37,484 nt of DNA, from IMG/VR virus record IMGVR_UViG_3300018080_000071, positions 1 through 37,484 of that record; one strand, given 5' to 3'. Source of the DNA: a virus. The translations under genes were made by a program, and so were the position numbers. Shown piece after piece: positions 4,211-37,484 of the stretch (position 1 is the stretch's first letter; every line of letters begins with the position of its first letter). The notes beneath the pieces were generated by a model, which saw only the letters and a list, made by a program, of their open reading frames with translations, was not told where the DNA came from and made no database searches.

Positions 4211-4239
4211 ATACTAGCATAATAGCATATATAAGTCAA
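4211..4239 (-). promoter_or_regulatory. Repeated early promoter, copy C
   Basis: TTGACT (4239-4234), 17-base spacer, TAGTAT (4216-4211; 4 of 6 matches) on the minus strand, followed by TATATATATAGGGCAG as in copies A and B. Drives the gene starting at 4164. Confidence 0.75.
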
Positions 4240-4320: not shown

Positions 4321-4827
4321 TTACTGTTTTTTTGGTTCCCATGCTTTTGAGTATTTATGATTCTGAATGTCTTTTCTTTTGAAGACACCATCGGCATACA
4401 GGAGGTCTACCTCACCCTTGTAAGCCCCGATTTCTTGAGCTATCTTTTGTTTGTCAACATTGTGCTTGTCGACTAAAGTTTTTATGATCTCACTCATCCT
4501 GAAAGCAAGGTGAGATCCTTTGGCTCTATTTATTCTTATGGTCAACAGCATTGCATCAGCGTCCGAAATAGGCAATACCACAACTGGAATCTTGCCATTG
4601 TACTTGGCTTTTAATTGAGCCGAGGACTGTGATACCTTCCATCTGTGAAAGCCATCTATTATGATGTTACTACCATTGATTATGATAGGCTGAATCCACC
4701 CATTTTTTAAAATGCTGAATTCTAAGAGCTTCAACTCCTGATTCATACATACATTAGGATTGTAGTTATTCGCATCCAGCTTTGAAGAGTCAATCCATTC
4801 TACATTATTTATAGGGTCTTTTTCCAT
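4321..4827 (-). CDS. ParB/sulfiredoxin-fold protein, short (IbrB-like)
   Basis: 168 aa from ATG 4827 (GTAGGAG 4 bases upstream). Residues 16-65 carry the ParB-N pattern: N-Y-N-P-N, then a helix LKLLEFSILKNGWIQPIII, a strand, and IIIDGFHRW, which replaces the classical GERR/GHGR box. The C-terminal part (RINRAKGSHLAFRMSEIIKT, then a helix-turn-helix-like segment KQKIAQEIGAYKGEVDLL) is typical of small ParB-like proteins. In E. coli, IbrB is a small ParB-like protein encoded with IbrA, a PAPS-reductase-like protein; a PAPS-reductase-like gene lies three genes upstream here. It closes the cassette. Nuclease activity is not implied by the fold. Confidence 0.75.
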   Translation of the reverse strand: MEKDPINNVEWIDSSKLDANNYNPNVCMNQELKLLEFSILKNGWIQPIIINGSNIIIDGFHRWKVSQSSAQLKAKYNGKIPVVVLPISDADAMLLTIRINRAKGSHLAFRMSEIIKTLVDKHNVDKQKIAQEIGAYKGEVDLLYADGVFKRKDIQNHKYSKAWEPKKQ

Positions 4828-4835
4828 TTTTTCTC

Positions 4836-5180
4836 CTACCAAGGTTTTATGACACCATGCTCTCTAGCTAGAATACCAAAGTCATGTCTCCAAACAGGAG
4901 GGTACTTGACCCCCTCTTTTATCTCATTAAAATAGGCTTCAACTTTTTCTTTAGCAAAATGTTTTGAGTGCAACATCATGTGACACCTCCAGCACAGCCC
5001 CTTCAAAAATTTAGTAGGGTGCGAATAGTCAGTATTATGCCATTGTTTGATACCCTCTTCTTGCCCACATTCGCAACACCTTGCTGGAACCGCAGGAATT
5101 TCACCCCTAGCAATAGCCGCCTTAGTTTTTTTCAAAGATGCCATACGTTCTTCTTTTGTCCAGCCATTCCAAGTCCTCAT
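4836..5180 (-). CDS. HNH-like zinc endonuclease or zinc-binding protein
   Basis: 114 aa from ATG 5180, which overlaps the upstream stop as TAATG and has GGGGGTG before it; the frame extends to 5252 without a site. After a basic N-terminal helix (TKEERMASLKKTKAAIARGE) come CCECG (35-39), WHNTDYSHP (47-54), LCWRCH (62-67) and HSKH (71-74). This is the treble-clef layout of HNH-type proteins: two Cys pairs and His/Asn/Asp between them. The expected use is metal-dependent DNA cleavage, but an accessory zinc role in the cassette is equally possible. Confidence 0.65.
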   Translation of the reverse strand: MRTWNGWTKEERMASLKKTKAAIARGEIPAVPARCCECGQEEGIKQWHNTDYSHPTKFLKGLCWRCHMMLHSKHFAKEKVEAYFNEIKEGVKYPPVWRHDFGILAREHGVIKPW

Positions 5181-5566
5181 TACACCCCCCTTTTTACGAA
5201 TGCTATACCATTTTTTTCCCATATCTTGGTAAAACCATTCTTTAAATACCAAAAAACATTTATCTTAGTTGTAGCATAAGCTGTGATACAACTACAATGT
5301 TTTTCTTTTAAAAAATCAAAAACTAAGTTATTTAATGCTGTTGAGATGCGCCGCCCACGATACTCTGGTAAAACATAAAACCCCTTCATTCTACCTACGT
5401 TTCCTCGAAGTATAGCGCACCCACCGACTGCGACCATTTGCTCCCCATCAAAAGCCGCAAACCAAAAGTGATCCTTACCATCACTCAAGACAACTCTCTC
5501 CCTTTTGGCTGCATTGTTCAACCAAAAGATATCAGAATGCTCAACTTGCTTATATTCTATTTTCAT
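5180..5566 (-). CDS. GNAT-family acyltransferase
   Basis: 128 aa. The GNAT core is clear: strand WFAAFDGEQMVAVGGCAIL, strand GRMKGFYVLPEY followed by the acyl-CoA loop RGRRIS (residues 70-75, Q/RxxGxG/A variant), helix ALNNLVFDFLKEKH, then strand ITAYAT and WYLKNGFTKI (the late motif of the fold). Start ATG overlaps the upstream stop (ATGA) and the end overlaps the next start (TAATG), so it is translated with its neighbours. GNAT folds include N-acetyltransferases and the Mu Mom base-modification protein; which of these applies cannot be told from the sequence alone. Confidence 0.85.
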   Translation of the reverse strand: MKIEYKQVEHSDIFWLNNAAKRERVVLSDGKDHFWFAAFDGEQMVAVGGCAILRGNVGRMKGFYVLPEYRGRRISTALNNLVFDFLKEKHCSCITAYATTKINVFWYLKNGFTKIWEKNGIAFVKRGV

Positions 5567-6648
5567 TTCTTACCCTTTACATCTGGCAAGAAAGCCCTTT
5601 TGACAACTCCACCCTTGAAAAGTTTTAGACAATATTCGAAGCTGTATTTGGGTGCTATCTTTGGATTTTTCTGATAGGAGACACATTCTCTATATCTTGC
5701 CATTGCATGTTTGAGTTGGTCTCCCTCAAACTTATTTGCTATCCAGAATCTTAGGTCTATCCAATCCTTCGGGTCTTCCTGCTCATTTGAGAACTTATCG
5801 AATTGTTTACCATATTTATCTTGTACTCCCATTTCCGGAAATACTTTAAGTACCCTATCGTAAAACTCTGCGTCTAATGTCCTCCACTTGTCAAGAGACT
5901 TAGCACTCTCAGCATGTAATGGAGTTGACACCCTTAGAGCTTGGTTCTGTGCAGATTGTCTATCATAGATTTCAGCATAAGGTATCCCTTCATCATAGAA
6001 GAACTTAAAGACATCATTTTCTTCCCAATCGTATATAGGTCTACCTATGCGAACACCTTTGGCACTTGAAGCGCAGACATATGCCTCATTTATGACGTTC
6101 AATACAGCTTTTAATCTAATTATGGACTCGCTGCATCTGATTCCAGTCATGATACAAACTTTACCCTTGTATTCTGCTGCGACTCTTGCGTCCATATTGT
6201 ATTGGTCATATATTTTTGAATCATCAGATATGCTCCAGGATGGCTTCTCCCTAACATAATTTTCTCTATTTGGATCCCATTGTATATAGTCAAAAGTCTT
6301 ACCCAATATATACTTTTGGCTTTTTAATGGAACAGTAAACCAAGTCATGTTTACCCAAGGAAGGCATCTATAGTAATCAACGAAGTCCACTATATGATCT
6401 GGTATAAGCTCCTCATCCCTAAATACTACATTGACGGGGGTTTTATCCCCTAATTCCTCTTTGACTATCCTAGTCAAATGAAGTAGAGCTAGACTATCTT
6501 TACCTCCAGAAAATGATACAACGAAATTGTCATGGGTCTGCATTATTCTTTTTAGCCGCCACTTAGCCGCCTCAAGGACATTCATGTTGCCCATTGGTTG
6601 GGTAGTATTCGCTAGTGTTTTTTTGCCAACTATTTTTACTTGAGCCAT
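5563..6648 (-). CDS. PAPS-reductase-family ATP pyrophosphatase (IbrA/DndC-like)
   Basis: 361 aa. The PP-loop VSFSGGKDSLALLH sits at residues 44-57, preceded by a helix. Later come VNVVFRDEELIPD (substrate strand), MTGIRCSESIIRLKAV (the G-x-R-x-x-E-S-x-x-R signature shared with IbrA-type and related phage enzymes) and IGRPIYDWEENDVFKFFYDE followed by IPYAEIYD, characteristic of PAPS reductases. I see no C-terminal catalytic ECG motif of assimilatory reductases, so adenylation or thiolation chemistry is more likely than sulfate assimilation. Start shares TAATG with the ParB-like gene upstream. The ParB-PAPSR pairing is the core of this cassette. Confidence 0.88.
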   Translation of the reverse strand: MAQVKIVGKKTLANTTQPMGNMNVLEAAKWRLKRIMQTHDNFVVSFSGGKDSLALLHLTRIVKEELGDKTPVNVVFRDEELIPDHIVDFVDYYRCLPWVNMTWFTVPLKSQKYILGKTFDYIQWDPNRENYVREKPSWSISDDSKIYDQYNMDARVAAEYKGKVCIMTGIRCSESIIRLKAVLNVINEAYVCASSAKGVRIGRPIYDWEENDVFKFFYDEGIPYAEIYDRQSAQNQALRVSTPLHAESAKSLDKWRTLDAEFYDRVLKVFPEMGVQDKYGKQFDKFSNEQEDPKDWIDLRFWIANKFEGDQLKHAMARYRECVSYQKNPKIAPKYSFEYCLKLFKGGVVKRAFLPDVKGKK

Positions 6649-7313
6649 TAGATTTTACTCAAATCGACATTTTCTTGAATAAATGAGCAGATTCTTTCAC
6701 TTATAGTCTCGGCTTCTGGCTGCTCTAACTTTAGCTTGGTCAAAAACTTAAACCATATTTCCTGTTCCTCGAGGTTTGAAAAAAGTAGCTGGTATGTAAT
6801 GTTGAAATTCTTTATTGTCACGCCGCTATCACCATCAGATAATGTACCATCCCCTTCATTTTCGTGCTCACTAGGTTCTTCTTCGCCCAAGATATCCGAA
6901 CCCCCAAGTACAGCTGCAATCTCAATCTCGTCCATTCCTGTGACATTCAGGTTATAGTCAAGAGAGTGCAACTCTTCCATTTCAAGTCTAAGATTATTAG
7001 TATCCCATCCAGCGTTAAGAGCTATCTTGTTATCTGCTATGCCAAAGGCTTTTCGCTGTGCTGGAGTAAGCTTGTCATTAAGGATAGTTGGCACTTTTTT
7101 TAGTTTGAGTCTCTTGGCTGCCCTTAAACGACCATGACCAGCCCAAACGACATTCTCGTCATCAATTTGTATAGGGTTGTTAAAGCCAAACTCTTTTATT
7201 GAATTGCAGATTTCATCAATCTGTGCATCAGAGTGAGTCCTTGTATTTCTAGGGTTCTCGATTAGGTCTTCAACCTTTTTTAACTCGATATTTTTAACAA
7301 TGTTTATGTCCAT
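6648..7313 (-). CDS. ParB-like nuclease-domain protein
   Basis: 221 aa. ParB-N domain at residues 10-90: VEDLIENPRNTRTHSDAQID, helix ICNSIKEFGFNNPIQI, then VVWAGHGRLRAAKRL (the GHGR box, 59-62) and VPTIL. It is followed by ALNAGWDTNNLRLEMEEL, which in phages usually links ParB-N to an adenine methylase domain. No methylase follows here; instead there is an acidic linker (SEHENEGDGTLSDGDSG) and a short C-terminal alpha/beta segment (about 166-221). It is the first gene of the cassette, with its own good promoter at 7337-7365. Confidence 0.85.
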   Translation of the reverse strand: MDINIVKNIELKKVEDLIENPRNTRTHSDAQIDEICNSIKEFGFNNPIQIDDENVVWAGHGRLRAAKRLKLKKVPTILNDKLTPAQRKAFGIADNKIALNAGWDTNNLRLEMEELHSLDYNLNVTGMDEIEIAAVLGGSDILGEEEPSEHENEGDGTLSDGDSGVTIKNFNITYQLLFSNLEEQEIWFKFLTKLKLEQPEAETISERICSFIQENVDLSKI

Positions 7314-7336: not shown

Positions 7337-7365
7337 ATCATAAACATGCCTTATAATTATGTCAA
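7337..7365 (-). promoter_or_regulatory. Promoter of the ParB/PAPS-reductase cassette
   Basis: TTGACA (7365-7360), 17-base spacer, TATGAT (7342-7337; 5 of 6 matches) on the minus strand, about 25 bases upstream of the ParB-like start. It gives the cassette expression independent of the ERF gene. Confidence 0.8.
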
Positions 7366-10253: not shown

Positions 10254-10303
10254 ATTTACTCCTTTTTGGTTTGTGTGATACTAATATGATAGCAGAATTA
10301 TAT

Positions 10304-10332
10304 TTGCATACAAGCAGAATTTCAACTATTAT
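10304..10332 (+). promoter_or_regulatory. Candidate promoter of the plus-strand virion-protein island
   Basis: TTGCAT (10304-10309), 17-base spacer, TATTAT (10327-10332; 5 of 6). It stands 23 bases before the ATG at 10355. Confidence 0.5.
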
Positions 10333-10354
10333 GGAGAAAACAATAGGAGGATTT

Positions 10355-10834
10355 ATGAGATTTTTTATTTTTATCATGTTTTTTGTATCAATTCTACAGG
10401 CTGTAACATATTCGAATACTCAAGTTCAGAACAAGGTATATTTTCAGACAAGTCCTGTATCACTCGTGTCTAGTGCTCAAGATTTAACAGCATCATGGGC
10501 AAGCGCAGGAGCTCAATTTGACTGTTCGGGAGCTAAAGAAATCGCAGCATGGGTTAACCTTGATATCAATGACTCAACTAATGCTAGAATAAGGCTTCTT
10601 GGCTATCAAACTACAGGTGGAGCTAGTTATCTAATGCCAATATCTACCATTTCTGCATCCGATGTGAAAGTAGAAGATCAATATGTTGAATTCAATAGTG
10701 ATACCGACCAAAAACAGATAGTTGGCTTTACTATAGATAGACTCATACCATATTGTAGATTTGAAGTTGTCGCTGGATCAGTAGGAACAACAGCTGGTCA
10801 AATTGACTCTTTAGACTACACGCTAGGGAGGTAA
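10355..10834 (+). CDS. Secreted virion-like beta protein
   Basis: 159 aa from ATG 10355 (AGGAGG 4 bases upstream); a frame start at 10271 lies before the promoter. A clear signal peptide MRFFIFIMFFVSILQA precedes a beta-rich mature part (SAQDLTASWASAGAQFDCSG, then LGYQTTGGASYLMP...) with two Cys (one in FDCSG, one in PYCRF). The mature sequence resembles small accessory virion proteins with a jelly-roll fold, which usually lack signal peptides. The next gene begins 1 base after its stop. Whether it ends up in the virion or in the periplasm/outer membrane is open. Confidence 0.7.
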   Translation: MRFFIFIMFFVSILQAVTYSNTQVQNKVYFQTSPVSLVSSAQDLTASWASAGAQFDCSGAKEIAAWVNLDINDSTNARIRLLGYQTTGGASYLMPISTISASDVKVEDQYVEFNSDTDQKQIVGFTIDRLIPYCRFEVVAGSVGTTAGQIDSLDYTLGR

Positions 10835-10835
10835 C

Positions 10836-11405
10836 ATGTTAGGATCAAAAGCCCATGAGAAGCCAGCAACGCTTATTCGTGGAGAAGATGTCGTTTGGGA
10901 CGATCTTAGATTCCCTGTTAGTAATGTCAGAATAACAGGTACTAATCCTGCTTCATGGGAAGTGTTTAATGGATTCCAAGTCCTAGGTTTTGAGGCTCAA
11001 GCAGTAAATGATGAACAAATTTATTTTTTAGCTCAACTGCCTCATAGCTACAAACATGGTTCAAATATCAAATTTCACGTTCATTGGTCACCAGAAACAG
11101 ACGATAATGCTACTGTTAGATGGGGGTTAGAATATGTTTGGGCTAATATAAATGATTCCTTGAGTGCCTCATCCACTACTGTTTACAAGGATGTGAACAT
11201 AGAGAATAATGGTGGAGACCACTTAATAACTACAATAGCAGAAATAGATGGTTCTAATAAAACCCTATCCTCAATGCTATTATGTAGACTTTTTAGAAAT
11301 TCATCACATGCCAATGACAACTTTGACGATATAGCGTACTTGTTTGAAGCAGATTTTCATTTTCAAATAGACCAACTAGGCTCTCGACAAGAGTTTATCA
11401 AGTAG
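10836..11405 (+). CDS. Phage structural protein with conserved HVHW motif
   Basis: 189 aa. It contains LPHSYKHGSNIKFHVHWSPE, WGLEYVWANIND, a central SSMLLCRLFRN and the terminal FEADFHFQIDQLGSRQEF. This combination is one I recognise from conserved phage structural proteins of unknown detailed role (often near fibres). No signal peptide, unlike both flanking genes. GGGAGG lies before the ATG. A strong terminator follows at 11411-11437. A receptor-binding or capsid/tail decoration role is plausible. Confidence 0.75.
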   Translation: MLGSKAHEKPATLIRGEDVVWDDLRFPVSNVRITGTNPASWEVFNGFQVLGFEAQAVNDEQIYFLAQLPHSYKHGSNIKFHVHWSPETDDNATVRWGLEYVWANINDSLSASSTTVYKDVNIENNGGDHLITTIAEIDGSNKTLSSMLLCRLFRNSSHANDNFDDIAYLFEADFHFQIDQLGSRQEFIK

Positions 11406-11410
11406 GTTTT

Positions 11411-11437
11411 AGGGGGGTATGTACCCCCCTTTTTTTT
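11411..11437 (+). terminator. Rho-independent terminator
   Basis: GGGGGG pairs with CCCCCC around a TATGTA centre, followed by a run of eight or more T, immediately after the HVHW protein gene. The next gene begins 23 bases later, so it receives only read-through or has a promoter I did not identify. Confidence 0.9.
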
Positions 11438-11459
11438 AATTTTAAAAAAGAGGTAAAAA

Positions 11460-11993
11460 ATGAAATTAACAATGGTGTTATTCTTGTGGGCTAGTGTATT
11501 GCTAGCTTTTGGCAGTTCTAGTAGTGTATCTATGAGCTTCAATGACCATAATATACATGCTGGAAAACATTTTTTCTATCACTCTAACCAAGATGTGACA
11601 GATGCAGATACAATCGTTCGATTCTTATTCGTGACACCATCCGAAAGAGATATTCACGCTAGGTTTTCAATTGAAGCAGAAGATGAATTCATAATTGAAC
11701 TGTATGAGGGTGCAACCACATCAAACAATGGCACTCCTATCACTATTTACAATAACAATAGAAACTCAACAGAAACCGCAACAGTTCTAGGGTTTTCGGC
11801 TCCTACTGTATCTAATGATGGTACGCTTATATGGAAGGGAGTTGTCAACTCAGGGAAAAAGACTTCTCTTGAAAGGCACTTTAACTATGAATTGGTTGCA
11901 AAGAACTCAACAAAGTATATGTTCAAGATAACAAAAACAGCAGCAGGAACCCATTTCATAGAGCCCGACTTCTACTTCTTCGAGCACCCTTAG
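11460..11993 (+). CDS. Secreted virion-like protein
   Basis: 177 aa with signal peptide MKLTMVLFLWASVLLAFG and likely cleavage near SSS. The mature part has ...HNIHAGKHFFYHSN, FVTPSERDIHARFSIE, LYEGATTSNNGTPI, NNNRNSTETA and ...IEPDFYFFEHP, a set of motifs I know from a widespread phage protein family (usually without signal peptide) near tail fibres. AAGAGG precedes the ATG. Its stop abuts the stop of the convergent minus-strand gene with no gap. Transport to the periplasm or cell surface would be unusual for a virion part. Confidence 0.75.
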   Translation: MKLTMVLFLWASVLLAFGSSSSVSMSFNDHNIHAGKHFFYHSNQDVTDADTIVRFLFVTPSERDIHARFSIEAEDEFIIELYEGATTSNNGTPITIYNNNRNSTETATVLGFSAPTVSNDGTLIWKGVVNSGKKTSLERHFNYELVAKNSTKYMFKITKTAAGTHFIEPDFYFFEHP

Positions 11994-21859: not shown

Positions 21860-22079
21860 GTTTGTATGCCCATCATGTGGAGCAACTATTGAAGATTACA
21901 TGTCTTATGATGCTAGCGAAAAGGCTGATGTCATGCCATGTGTATGTCAACCCGGGGTCTTTATGTCAAAGAAATTCCCTAGGAATACTGCTGTAAAATA
22001 CAATTGCACAGGCTTCTACCATACTGATAGCAAAGAGTGGGGTAAGAAAAAGGTCAAAAAAAGAAGGAGTTGGACTTGA
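21846..22079 (+). CDS. FmdB-type zinc ribbon protein
   Basis: 77 aa from GTG 21846, chosen because the resulting start MPIFEFVCPSCGATIED matches the FmdB family N-terminus (MPxYEYxCxxCG) and GGAG lies 10 bases upstream. The second Cys pair is MPCVCQPG. The tail is basic (GKKKVKKRRSW). Function in the family is unknown; the zinc ribbon suggests nucleic-acid or protein contact. Overlaps the upstream gene by 14 bases and the next start by TTGA. Confidence 0.75.
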   Translation: MPIFEFVCPSCGATIEDYMSYDASEKADVMPCVCQPGVFMSKKFPRNTAVKYNCTGFYHTDSKEWGKKKVKKRRSWT

Positions 22080-23239
22080 GTAAAATGCTAAAAGCTAAAG
22101 ATGAGCCAGCTAAAATAACAGCTAGGGACATCTTAAAGCTTGGTGAAACATGTTTCTACTGTGGTAAAAGCATCTTAAATGAGGACGGAACGATTCAGCA
22201 ATTTCTGACAGTCAATCCTCAAGACGGATACGTTGCCCATAAGGTATGTAGGATAAAAAACAAGCCAGAAGATCAACTTACAATCCTTATAACTATGGGT
22301 TCTTATGCCATAGGAGATACAATAACAATAACTCCAGTTTTACGTTTTATAAAAAAGACTTACCCAAAGTGCAAATTGAGTCTGATAACTGTATTTCCTG
22401 ACTTATTCAAGTACAATGAGGACGTTGACAATGTGATTCCATGGCACGACACTGTAGATAAAAATTACATGGCTCAATTCGACTATGCCCTTGACCCATT
22501 TAGACCAATGGACGTTCTTAGAGGAAGACACATGTTGACCCATTCTGTTGACTTTGTTTCAAGACCAGTTTTTGGTCACTCATTGTTACCTGATGATATG
22601 CAGTATAAAGTCAAATATTCATATGTTGAAGAAGAAAGTGCTTTCAAAAAGGCATCCAAAAAATTTGACTTAGAAAAACCATTCATCGTGATCAATCCAT
22701 ATGATTCTGGATGGGAGTCTCGATCTTTAGGTAAAGACTTTTGGAGCGAAGTTATAAAATCAATAAGGTCAGAGTACAAAGATTACCAACTTATAGCCCT
22801 CGGAGGGTCAAGAAAAGAATATGACAAGGAACAACTTGACAATCATATCGAGTTTGATGGACTTATAGAATTCTACGATCAATTGTCTCTATTGGAGTCA
22901 ATTGCCATTATGGATAAAGCGGCTTGCGTTGTAACAGCTGATACGGGAGCGTTACATATGGCTGCTTGCACCAAAGACACTAAAATTCTTGGAATTTTTA
23001 CTGTTGTAAAAAGCAGATATAGAGTGCCTGTCAGAAATGGCGAGGTCGGTTACAACTTTTTGGCTGTTGAAGAGGATTGCCATTGTAGCTACGCTCATAA
23101 ATTTTTCACAGGAGACTTAGTTATAAGTAAATGTCCTAGAGAGTATCCTAGCTATAAATGCCACCCTTCACCCGAAAAGGTTATCAAGACACTTGGAGAG
23201 TTGATGGATGGAAAAGCACACTATAGACCCCATATGTAA
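22076..23239 (+). CDS. GT9-family glycosyltransferase (heptosyltransferase-like) with N-terminal zinc finger
   Basis: 387 aa from TTG 22076 (GGAG 6 bases upstream, overlapping the previous stop as TTGA). Residues 26-58 hold CFYC...HKVC, a likely zinc site absent from standard heptosyltransferases. GT9 features follow: GDTITITPVLRFIKKTYP (80-97), KPFIVINPYDSGWESRSLG for the central Rossmann switch, and VVTADTGALHMAA (about 285-297), the donor-site D-T/S-G-x-x-H signature. GT9 enzymes add ADP-heptose to LPS core. The extra Cys-rich C-terminal part (EDCHCSY, SKCPREYP, YKCHP) is unusual. It probably modifies host LPS or a phage component. Confidence 0.82.
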   Translation: MSKMLKAKDEPAKITARDILKLGETCFYCGKSILNEDGTIQQFLTVNPQDGYVAHKVCRIKNKPEDQLTILITMGSYAIGDTITITPVLRFIKKTYPKCKLSLITVFPDLFKYNEDVDNVIPWHDTVDKNYMAQFDYALDPFRPMDVLRGRHMLTHSVDFVSRPVFGHSLLPDDMQYKVKYSYVEEESAFKKASKKFDLEKPFIVINPYDSGWESRSLGKDFWSEVIKSIRSEYKDYQLIALGGSRKEYDKEQLDNHIEFDGLIEFYDQLSLLESIAIMDKAACVVTADTGALHMAACTKDTKILGIFTVVKSRYRVPVRNGEVGYNFLAVEEDCHCSYAHKFFTGDLVISKCPREYPSYKCHPSPEKVIKTLGELMDGKAHYRPHM

Positions 23240-31420: not shown

Positions 31421-32701
31421 CTACCAACTATTCGAGTTCAAGCTTGATGACATAGGTTTTAGATCGCTCATAGCATCATCCTCCCTGAATGTGGCTATCT
31501 TGCCATGCCTGTAAAAAGCAAGTATTATGGCATCTGCCAAGTCGGGAGACTTATTTCCTCTTTTTTTGTATTCATCCTTTGACTCAACGCACCTTCGACC
31601 CCTTCTGTCCAACCTCCATTTTCTACTTGTAAGCTCATGGAATAGCTCTTGGTCTTTTGGTATGCTTATTTCTTTTACCATTTCTGAAAATTCGAACCAT
31701 GCCTCACTAATGAGCATATCGTATTTATTCTTATTCTTTGGTGCGCCACCAAATACGATATCGTATGTCTTGCTGTAACCATCCTGCCTTAAAATATCGC
31801 AGACACCACCCCCGACACCTGTTGAGTCTACCTTGATGATATCGTCTTTAGAGCAAAATTGTTTCACCTTGTTTGCCACTTCTGGAACCGATAATTTTTT
31901 ATAAATCTTGTAGTCTATTACTGCCAGCCCTTTTCTTTTGAAGAGGACAGTTCTGTCCTGACCGAACCTAGCGACATCGACACCCACCTCTGTCTTACCG
32001 AAGGTATCTTTGGGTCTTTCTGTTGCCTTCTTTAAAGCCTCTCTTGAGATAATAGAGTCTTCTGATTGGTATAAAGGCTCACCTTCCCATACATGGAGGT
32101 ATTTGTCGTAGTCATTTTCCTTCATGAACTTCATTTCATCCAAAAGGATATCTGATATGAATGGATTATCACGATATGTAGAGTTGTAGTGCCAAACATC
32201 ATCCCTTGGTGTATTGACGAATGTTTCATATACTGGATCGAGCTCTAAAAATCTATTGAACGAAAACCATATTTCTGAGTTCTGCTTTCTTATCGTTGGG
32301 ATAAGAAGGTCTATGGAAGCCTGTTTTATGGCATGGGCTTCTTCACACCATGCGATATCAATACCCTCAGTAGACTTTATCTCCTGAAAATTCATGTGTA
32401 AGCCCCTATAGATGAATTCTGTCCCTGTATTGACGTTCGTTATTGTTTTATTTGTGTATTTGTAACCTGGAAATTTATGTTTTTCTATAAGGTCTGTTAG
32501 TAGTTTATGAACAGAATCGGCAATTGAATTCTGAATTTCTCTAGTACAAAGAATCCTAAGTTTTTCTTTACACCCTTTGAGCAGTAGAGCCTGTGCGATA
32601 TTGTAACTCTTACCCGAGCCCCTTCCTCCCGACAGGACTTTATACCTTTTGGGCTTGAACAATGGAGCAAAGCTCTTTGGCATTGTTATATTGTAATCCA
32701 T
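31421..32701 (-). CDS. terL: Terminase large subunit (PBSX/Terminase_3-like)
   Basis: 426 aa. Walker A SGGRGSGKS (24-32), Walker B IDIAWCEEAH (114-123), coupling motif in WHYNSTYRDNPFISD, and the RNase-H-type nuclease domain with GVDVARFGQDRTV (about 240), VDSTGVGGGVCD (about 290) and KSPDLADAIILAFYRHG (C-terminal Asp). ATP-driven DNA packaging and cutting of concatemers. It follows terS with a 4-base gap and precedes the portal. Family suggests headful or cos, not decidable here. Confidence 0.93.
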   Translation of the reverse strand: MDYNITMPKSFAPLFKPKRYKVLSGGRGSGKSYNIAQALLLKGCKEKLRILCTREIQNSIADSVHKLLTDLIEKHKFPGYKYTNKTITNVNTGTEFIYRGLHMNFQEIKSTEGIDIAWCEEAHAIKQASIDLLIPTIRKQNSEIWFSFNRFLELDPVYETFVNTPRDDVWHYNSTYRDNPFISDILLDEMKFMKENDYDKYLHVWEGEPLYQSEDSIISREALKKATERPKDTFGKTEVGVDVARFGQDRTVLFKRKGLAVIDYKIYKKLSVPEVANKVKQFCSKDDIIKVDSTGVGGGVCDILRQDGYSKTYDIVFGGAPKNKNKYDMLISEAWFEFSEMVKEISIPKDQELFHELTSRKWRLDRRGRRCVESKDEYKKRGNKSPDLADAIILAFYRHGKIATFREDDAMSDLKPMSSSLNSNSW

Positions 32702-32705
32702 TGTC

Positions 32706-33104
32706 TCACACGAAGTTTACATTGAGATTTACAGTATGGTCTACAGTCTCTTTAACTTCAACGTCTGATTTATCCCTCCAGCCAAACTTGTTTTTCATTG
32801 CAAAAATGATCAATGTAGAGTTGGGGGTTAGTTTCTTCTCAAACTTGGAACCATCAGGTCTCTTTTCAATAACAGTATTATGACCCATAGCAGCCCTAAC
32901 GTATAGAGTCTCCCAAAAGAGCAATTCTCTCTGCTTACCCTCCTTTTTGGCTTCGGAAAAAGCTTTATGTCTTTTTTCCCATGCGTATAAGGTATCTAAA
33001 TTTACCTTGATTTTTCCTGCAAAAGCCTTGTAGGACAGTCCTTTACCAAGATGCTCTATGAGTTCAGCACAATACTTCTTGTTGTACTTACTCGGTCTAC
33101 CCAT
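32706..33104 (-). CDS. terS: Terminase small subunit
   Basis: 132 aa. MGRPSKYNKKYCAELIEHLG is the common TerS start; helix-turn-helix in SYKAFAGKIKVNLDTLYAWE (about 24-43), then a helical oligomer part (KEGKQRELLFWETLYVRAAM) and a C-terminal segment (TLIIFAMKNKFGWRDK). It recognises the packaging site and stimulates TerL. No own ribosome binding site is evident; it likely depends on coupling with the ribbon-helix-helix gene before it. Confidence 0.88.
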   Translation of the reverse strand: MGRPSKYNKKYCAELIEHLGKGLSYKAFAGKIKVNLDTLYAWEKRHKAFSEAKKEGKQRELLFWETLYVRAAMGHNTVIEKRPDGSKFEKKLTPNSTLIIFAMKNKFGWRDKSDVEVKETVDHTVNLNVNFV

Positions 33105-34503: not shown

Positions 34504-34803
34504 TTATTTTTTCATATTGACCCATTGACTCGCAGCTGTATAGCTTCTTGGTTCTATTCCAAGAGCTTTACAGAAATCTATTTCACTCCAAATTGTAAGC
34601 CTTGTATCACTATGTCCTACATGGCAATGCCAGCATGTCGTTTGGATATTCTTATAATGATTAATCCAATCTATACCATCAGTTTTATTGCCTTTACCAT
34701 AGTATTTCTTATTGACTTTGGTTTGCGGGAATTTATGATGCCTTTGTATAAAGCGTTGACTCACCAACTCCCTACCACATGTTGGACATTTATATTCTAT
34801 CAT
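34504..34803 (-). CDS. HNH endonuclease
   Basis: 99 aa. CPTCGRELVSQRFIQRHHKF (zinc pair 1 and the HH of the active site), then NIQTTCWHCHVGHSD (Asn, zinc pair 2 and final His). Spacing suits the HNH treble clef. In many phages such an enzyme near the terminase helps packaging or concatemer cutting. It stands about 1.5 kb before terS here. AAGGAGG before the ATG. Confidence 0.8.
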   Translation of the reverse strand: MIEYKCPTCGRELVSQRFIQRHHKFPQTKVNKKYYGKGNKTDGIDWINHYKNIQTTCWHCHVGHSDTRLTIWSEIDFCKALGIEPRSYTAASQWVNMKK

Positions 34804-37327: not shown

Positions 37328-37484
37328 CGGTAAGTCCTTTCAATTTTTGAATCATATTTACACCCCCCTCAATAGCCTTAACATTGGCATGCCTACGCTC
37401 GACATCTCTAGCATCACTTGTCGTTACAACATTGTTCGTTCTCCATTCGGTACTCAGTTTTTCAGCGTCATTAAGCAGGAGTCC
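37317..37484 (-). CDS. Putative replication initiator, C-terminal part
   Basis: C-terminal 55 residues of the gene whose start is at 765. The frame enters from the right edge (the terminal repeat), crosses the unique bases 37361-37317 and ends in ...LKGLTDEK. Its TAA stop (37319-37317) lies inside the start of the next minus-strand gene (ATG at 37327), an 11-base overlap typical of translational coupling in a replication operon. The fragment alone has no recognisable domain; its meaning comes from joining the window ends. Confidence 0.75.
   Translation of the reverse strand, partial: GLLLNDAEKLSTEWRTNNVVTTSDARDVERRHANVKAIEGGVNMIQKLKGLTDEK
37362..37484. repeat. Terminal direct repeat, right copy
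   Basis: Exact second copy of bases 1-123. Joining the two copies gives a unit genome of about 37,361 bp and restores one uninterrupted minus-strand gene. Confidence 0.95.

Follow-up and report, generated by a model that had tools for sequence, protein, structure and literature searches.

Background

The closest described relatives of the locus discussed here are IbrA and IbrB of Escherichia coli (the YbdN/YbdM type), a PAPS-reductase-like enzyme (PAPSR below) and its ParB-like partner. The locus is a five-gene cassette of a virus, IMG/VR record IMGVR_UViG_3300018080_000071, whose whole stretch of 37,484 nucleotides is called the window. The five genes are packed on the minus strand only, at positions 7313-4321, and encode in order a first ParB-like protein (ParB_A), PAPSR, an acyltransferase of the GNAT family, a small HNH-like protein and a second ParB-like protein (ParB_B). 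PAPSR and ParB_B are homologous to IbrA and IbrB, are likewise adjacent or near-adjacent, and have catalytic-type residues in common with them. This kinship, proposed in an earlier sequence-only reading of the window, is borne out by the cassette profiles, which find PAPSR with ParB_B close by in almost every one of 78 bacterial loci, and relatives are annotated as IbrA/IbrB. The cassette differs from the pair in having ParB_A upstream, a slot taken by either the GNAT or a methyltransferase-like (MTase-like) gene, an HNH-like gene, and a shorter PAPSR subfamily (median 361 amino acids, compared with 433).

Among named phages, the cassette is found in Bacillus phage 035JT001, Arthrobacter phage Salgado, the M. 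abscessus prophage prophi79-1 and Mycobacterium phage Compostia. All four share the ParB_A-PAPSR-ParB_B core, with about 40-44% identity for PAPSR and 51-58% for ParB_B, but unlike the window they have an MTase-like gene in place of the GNAT or, in Compostia, neither. To our knowledge, no experimental function has been assigned to these cassettes.

ParB-like proteins also occur in better described pathways of DNA modification. CmoA-CmoX-CmoY is a ParB-linked phage system of 5-carboxymethylcytosine hypermodification that uses an AMP-forming, asparagine-synthetase-like ligase (PMC12783734), and DpdB is the ParB-like ATPase of the Dpd DNA modification pathway (PMC12839542); both are therefore precedents for reading the cassette as a ParB-linked DNA modification system. 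Its likeness to Cmo lies in the use, for phage DNA modification, of an ATP-consuming, AMP-forming ligase, often with a ParBc protein; the five genes, however, include neither CmoA nor the C5-methyltransferase-like CmoX, and PAPSR is of the IbrA type and not asparagine-synthetase-like. The Dnd, Ssp and type-4 BREX systems likewise contain a PP-loop enzyme of the PAPS-reductase superfamily, joined in Dnd by a ParB-superfamily protein, but their defining cysteines and partner proteins are absent from the cassette.

The core pair has thus already been named, its pieces being annotated in phages as PAPS reductase and ParB nuclease, and phage DNA hypermodification is a known kind of system. Neither the set of five genes nor the alternation of GNAT and MTase-like genes turned up in the full-text literature searched, whose coverage is incomplete since subscription papers fall mostly outside it; IbrA/IbrB in phages are mentioned there. 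The cassette and the alternation in its slot therefore look undescribed.

Results

A conserved cassette in two gene orders

A PAPSR scan of viral contigs yielded 18 loci and a query with the alignment as many as 80; a further 80 came from bacterial genomes. Six profiles were then run over every open reading frame (ORF) of the surveyed loci. The counts below refer to the 52 loci whose PAPSR score exceeds 180 bits and whose downstream sequence is long enough (two of the surveyed loci, L051 and L052, are near-duplicates). The sequence-only reading had made recurrence of the set in other genomes a touchstone, and the set does recur: the order ParB_A-PAPSR-GNAT-HNH-ParB_B is present in 9 of the 52 loci, namely the window (L001) and eight others, and a second order, ParB_A-PAPSR-ParB_B-GNAT-HNH, in 13. 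Recurrence in two orders means that the grouping is not due to chance; the genes form a functional cassette that has been conserved, with a ParB_A-PAPSR-ParB_B core.

An exchangeable slot

The gene position occupied by the GNAT in the window, which we call slot X, holds a GNAT in 28 loci, an MTase-like gene in 15 and neither in nine, and no locus has both (Fisher p = 2.9e-7, a value inflated by related sequences and uncorrected for relatedness). For this reason, pairs of contigs and trees were added as further lines of evidence. One pair, L013 and L016, has 92.6% nucleotide identity across 3.6 kb spanning ParB_A, PAPSR and ParB_B, yet one contig has the MTase-like gene and the other the GNAT. 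Similarity stops at the start of the slot gene, 4 bases short of the end of ParB_B, and is regained 183 bases inside the HNH-like gene. Comparison of L013 7566-8300 with L016 4716-5260 thus places a recombination junction within the HNH-like gene, whose N-terminal half was exchanged together with slot X while the C-terminal half was kept. The pair L009 and L006 shows an equivalent swap pattern at 81% and 71% identity.

On the PAPSR tree the slot label changes nine times, at least eight of the changes being forced by well-supported branches; it also changes nine times on each of the ParB_A and ParB_B trees, and five times on the HNH tree. These are quick trees made without bootstraps, and some branches, the window's among them, are long. 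Slot X has been switched many times, and the lower number of changes on the HNH tree indicates that the HNH-like protein tends to travel along with it. The HNH-like gene is present in all 28 loci with a GNAT, in 12 of the 15 with an MTase-like gene, and in two of the nine with neither.

A GNAT also lies between or beside the IbrA/IbrB pair in bacterial loci of Sphingomonas (L106, 8197-8661), Bordetella (L116, 8233-8709), Achromobacter (L152, 8005-8745) and Prevotellaceae (L178, 6561-6986). These gene sets are IbrA-GNAT-IbrB or GNAT-IbrA-IbrB, with a GNAT that belongs to the same broad family, so that the GNAT link reaches beyond phages. A megablast search for the E. coli context of a Klebsiella IbrA gave no match.

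The PAPSR enzyme

PAPSR (5563..6648, minus strand, 361 amino acids) is an IbrA-type protein resembling PP-loop ATP pyrophosphatases (PF01507, 2.5e-12; phrog_2302, 3.7e-86). It carries the motifs SGGKDS and GIRCSES..R; SGGKDS, D-x-E and G-x-R-x-x-E-S-x-x-R are conserved, and the PP-loop and the last of these motifs are retained in the phage and bacterial subfamilies alike. The sequence-only reading had noted these two elements and the lack of the reductase ECG motif, and this description was correct: the catalytic cysteine of the CysH ECG motif is not conserved (TIGR00434 scores 16 bits, against a cut-off of 165), and none of the cysteines is invariant among 66 family members, the best column (225) being cysteine in 92% of them but alanine in the window. 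An AlphaFold2 (AF2) model, computed from alignment rows of the window and the surveyed contigs only, has a pLDDT of 87. Its nearest folds are the PAPS domain of FAD synthase and CysH, followed by others including TtuA and TilS. FAD synthase transfers AMP, and the resemblance therefore favours an adenylation step.

The enzymes of slot X

The window's slot X is filled by a GNAT acyltransferase (5180..5566, minus strand, 128 amino acids) with a clear domain match (PF00583, 2.8e-11; 44.1 bits against a gathering cut-off of 20.7). Its AF2 model (pLDDT 96) has the GNAT fold and matches ordinary N-acetyltransferases (Foldseek E 5e-9). Mu Mom, a phage modification enzyme, is also assigned to the GNAT superfamily, and the sequence-only reading had suggested that the window protein could act like it. 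We abandon this suggestion: hhalign gives the two a probability of 0.3%, that is, no detectable sequence relationship, and the predicted structure is that of an ordinary GNAT. The protein is strongly basic, with an isoelectric point (pI) of 9.6, and so are its counterparts: 33 of 33 cassette GNATs have a pI above 9, compared with 40% above 8.5 among similar-sized background ORFs. Other GNATs picked as pI controls were mostly linked to IbrA/IbrB too, and so made no proper control. Such basic proteins are as expected for enzymes that would act on nucleic acid.

In relatives, slot X may instead hold a protein of about 185 residues that resembles S-adenosylmethionine (SAM)-dependent methyltransferases (phrog_11826); examples are L003 7535-8089, L009 7544-8098, L013 7566-8123, L020 7109-7660 and L022 7965-8570. 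The family has a SAM-type glycine motif, and conserved RRxxPE and EGR replace the usual catalytic motifs, which makes it an unusual Rossmann enzyme.

The HNH-like and ParB-like proteins

The HNH-like zinc protein (4836..5180, minus strand) has 114 amino acids from the ATG at 5180; a TTG at 5252 is also open. The pattern CxxC...H...CxxCHx3H is invariant in the family, and the PHROG endonuclease family phrog_2340 is matched at 8.4e-5 by the window protein and at 8e-10 by the best relative. The earlier label of HNH is weaker than those of the other genes: behind it stand the zinc and histidine positions and the endonuclease match, there is no Pfam match, and we retain 'HNH-like' only. Another, unrelated HNH-like small ORF lies at 34504-34803 (minus strand), near the genes for the small (terS) and large (terL) terminase subunits, which makes the cassette gene distinct from a terminase-side HNH. 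The locus L006 also has a second, different HNH-type gene beside the terminase, and the idea that the cassette protein is simply a packaging HNH is accordingly disfavoured.

ParB_A (6648..7313, minus strand, 221 amino acids) has a ParB_N domain (PF02195, 2.3e-7) and a conserved C-terminal domain, and matches phrog_15396 (1e-45). Its match to phrog_498 (1.7e-44) covers only the N-terminal residues 32-172 of 633. It thus resembles the ParB half of ParB-methylase families (phrog_498; MTase_II of PADLOC) without the methylase domain, as the sequence-only reading had stated. With a median pI of 4.6 and a net charge near -14, the ParB_A family is strongly acidic, which is unusual for a DNA-binding ParB, and the gene is doubled in tandem in several relatives, for example L022, L036, L039, L040, L066 and L068.

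ParB_B (4321..4827, minus strand, 168 amino acids) is of the IbrB type, with an ATG at 4827 preceded by AGGAG; a TTG at 4842 is also open. It has a ParB_N domain, matches phrog_2159 (2.3e-65) and, in the PDB, ParB/Noc CTPase folds, and is 50-60% identical to ParB_B of other cassettes, the DGFHR motif being invariant. When both ParBs were compared with partition proteins, only the N-terminal domain scored above cut-off and TIGR00180 remained below it; no ParA partner was found among the proteins scanned. The tie of the two proteins to the nucleotide-binding ParB/Noc fold is one of sequence profile only.

Organisation of the locus and its surroundings

The sequence-only reading had described five genes in one direction behind their own good promoter, and both the coordinates and the promoter could be re-derived. 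A sigma-70-like site, TTGACA-17-TATGAT (7337..7365, minus strand), matches the consensus at 11 of 12 positions, is the best of the region and stands 23 bases 5' of the ParB_A ATG, which is preceded by the Shine-Dalgarno sequence AAGGAG. The site is a consensus match only, and promoter-like sites in the whole region number 14, against 12.2 +/- 4.0 by chance, with no excess; the call is therefore based on quality and position. The first three junctions are overlaps of 1 base, 4 bases (ATGA) and 1 base, as had been noted; at the last, the HNH-like gene and ParB_B are 8 bases apart, or overlap by 7 bases should translation begin at the TTG at 4842. A second promoter-like site 3' of the cassette, TTGACT-17-TAGTAT (4211..4239, minus strand), has TG before the -10 (an extended -10) and precedes the gene 4164-3775, which suggests that the genes following the cassette have a promoter of their own.

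In all ten relatives tested, terL is the first large gene 3' of the cassette, and at least four distinct terL families are represented. The window is the exception to this adjacency: its cassette is an early-region neighbour of ERF, remote from terL (31421-32701) and terS (32706-33104). An exact 123-base direct repeat at the two ends of the record (1-123 and 37362-37484) makes it likely that this is a complete genome of about 37.4 kb that was assembled as a circle, with the terminase, portal, capsid and tape measure genes of a phage structural set. Most genes are on the minus strand; those at 10271-11993 and 22070-23239 are on the plus strand, one matching phrog_5335, of unknown function, and the last weakly matching phrog_27389.

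Discussion

What could such a cassette do? The sequence-only reading had offered a DNA modification or host-control system, and of these we keep modification as the best reading: the set may be a phage nucleic-acid modification cassette, acting most likely on phage DNA before packaging, a proposal that we hold tentatively and that falls a little short of probable. The ParB-fold proteins would bind nucleotide and either load on DNA or select it. The PP-loop enzyme would use ATP to activate a group on the target by adenylation, installing an amine or hydroxyl and not sulfur. The installed group could be acetylated by the GNAT in the window, or alkylated by the MTase-like enzyme elsewhere, giving two versions of one mark, and the HNH-like protein might recognise or cut DNA according to the mark or site. 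Swapping of slot X could then serve immune evasion, since an altered mark would alter which host nucleases see the DNA.

Several points weigh against this proposal. What is observed is which genes are present and in what order, their exclusivity, the swaps and the conserved residues; the chemistry and the target, any modified nucleoside included, we infer from these. A basic pI also suits RNA or ribosomal-protein substrates. The DNA amino-methyltransferase motif [DNS]PP[YFWH] is found in 0 of 21 MTase-like proteins, and their PDB relatives are small-molecule, protein and RNA methyltransferases, so that DNA as the target of these enzymes is likewise something we only infer. The HNH-like protein may be a mere zinc finger, and physical adjacency alone could make it move together with slot X. 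Finally, bacterial IbrA/IbrB pairs mostly have neither a GNAT nor an MTase, and in the literature they are viewed as regulatory.

Regulation of host or phage genes is indeed a real, though minority, possibility. The IbrA/IbrB-type pair would be a transcription co-activator, the GNAT or MTase would modify a regulator, and the HNH-like protein and ParB_A would bind DNA. The pair that forms the PAPSR-ParB_B core is recorded as a co-activator of prophage genes (annotations; PMC4490671), and the homologous E. coli pair ybdN-ybdM has been discussed as possibly regulatory (PMC9068703). However, catalytic-type motifs are kept across phages and bacteria (SGGKDS and GxRxxES in PAPSR, DGFHR in ParB_B), and regulation leaves two group-transfer enzymes alternating in one slot unexplained. 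A bolder form of the modification proposal, which we consider doubtful, is a marking-and-cutting system: the core would write an adenylation-dependent group on DNA, the GNAT or MTase-like enzyme would complete the mark by acetylation or alkylation, and the HNH-like protein would be a matched nuclease sparing marked phage DNA and cutting that of the host or of rivals; bacterial IbrA/IbrB would then supply the core enzymes for this chemistry and not regulate transcription. Modification of tRNA or rRNA, or takeover of the host, is about as doubtful, if not slightly more so. These RNAs are substrates of many PP-loop enzymes, as they are of many GNATs and small Rossmann methyltransferases; TilS and TtuA are among the fold matches of PAPSR, RNA methyltransferases are among the PDB and PHROG relatives of the MTase-like family, and the GNATs are basic, but terminase adjacency favours DNA, as do the ParB and HNH-like proteins of the cassette.

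That same adjacency could mean that the cassette is a packaging accessory, controlling or marking DNA for cutting by the terminase. It lies directly 5' of terS-terL in most relatives, beside unrelated terL families. A specific contact is, however, unlikely because the terminases belong to different families; several of these phages have a separate terminase-side HNH, and in the window the cassette is far from terL. We regard this role as improbable. Thiolation, which the sequence-only reading had also raised, can largely be set aside, whether as DNA phosphorothioation or as base thiolation by a DndC/SspD-like enzyme. PAPSR does belong to the same superfamily, and has weak DndC and BrxP matches, mainly over the PP-loop, but the DndC model TIGR03183 scores 18.6 bits against a cut-off of 290. 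DndC is described as relying on a cysteine dyad in addition to three Fe-S cysteines (PMC10853773), for which the PAPSR family has no invariant counterpart, column 225 included; for this reason, DndC-type sulfur transfer by PAPSR appears unlikely. None of the partners DndD, DndE, DndA, SspB and SspC is matched among the five cassette proteins. A link with 7-deazaguanine was also considered, by way of Mycobacterium cluster B, and found no support: the modified phage there, Rosebush (PMC6884629), is not shown to have the cassette. The genes could, lastly, be unrelated morons lying side by side with no joint function. Mosaicism is common among phage genes, and slot X itself is mosaic; nevertheless, the same set in phages with different terminases, in two orders, together with the statistics of mutual exclusion and co-occurrence, makes this explanation hardly credible.

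Conclusions

The IbrA/IbrB pair, present in many bacteria and phages and long unexplained, gains a biochemical setting: an enzymatic core accompanied by an exchangeable transferase of the acyl or methyl type. If the mark is on DNA, the cassette would represent a new phage DNA modification that exists in two natural versions, and the matched pair L013/L016 would be a ready-made test. Relatives have been cultured in B. subtilis, Arthrobacter and M. smegmatis, which puts the question within direct reach of testing.

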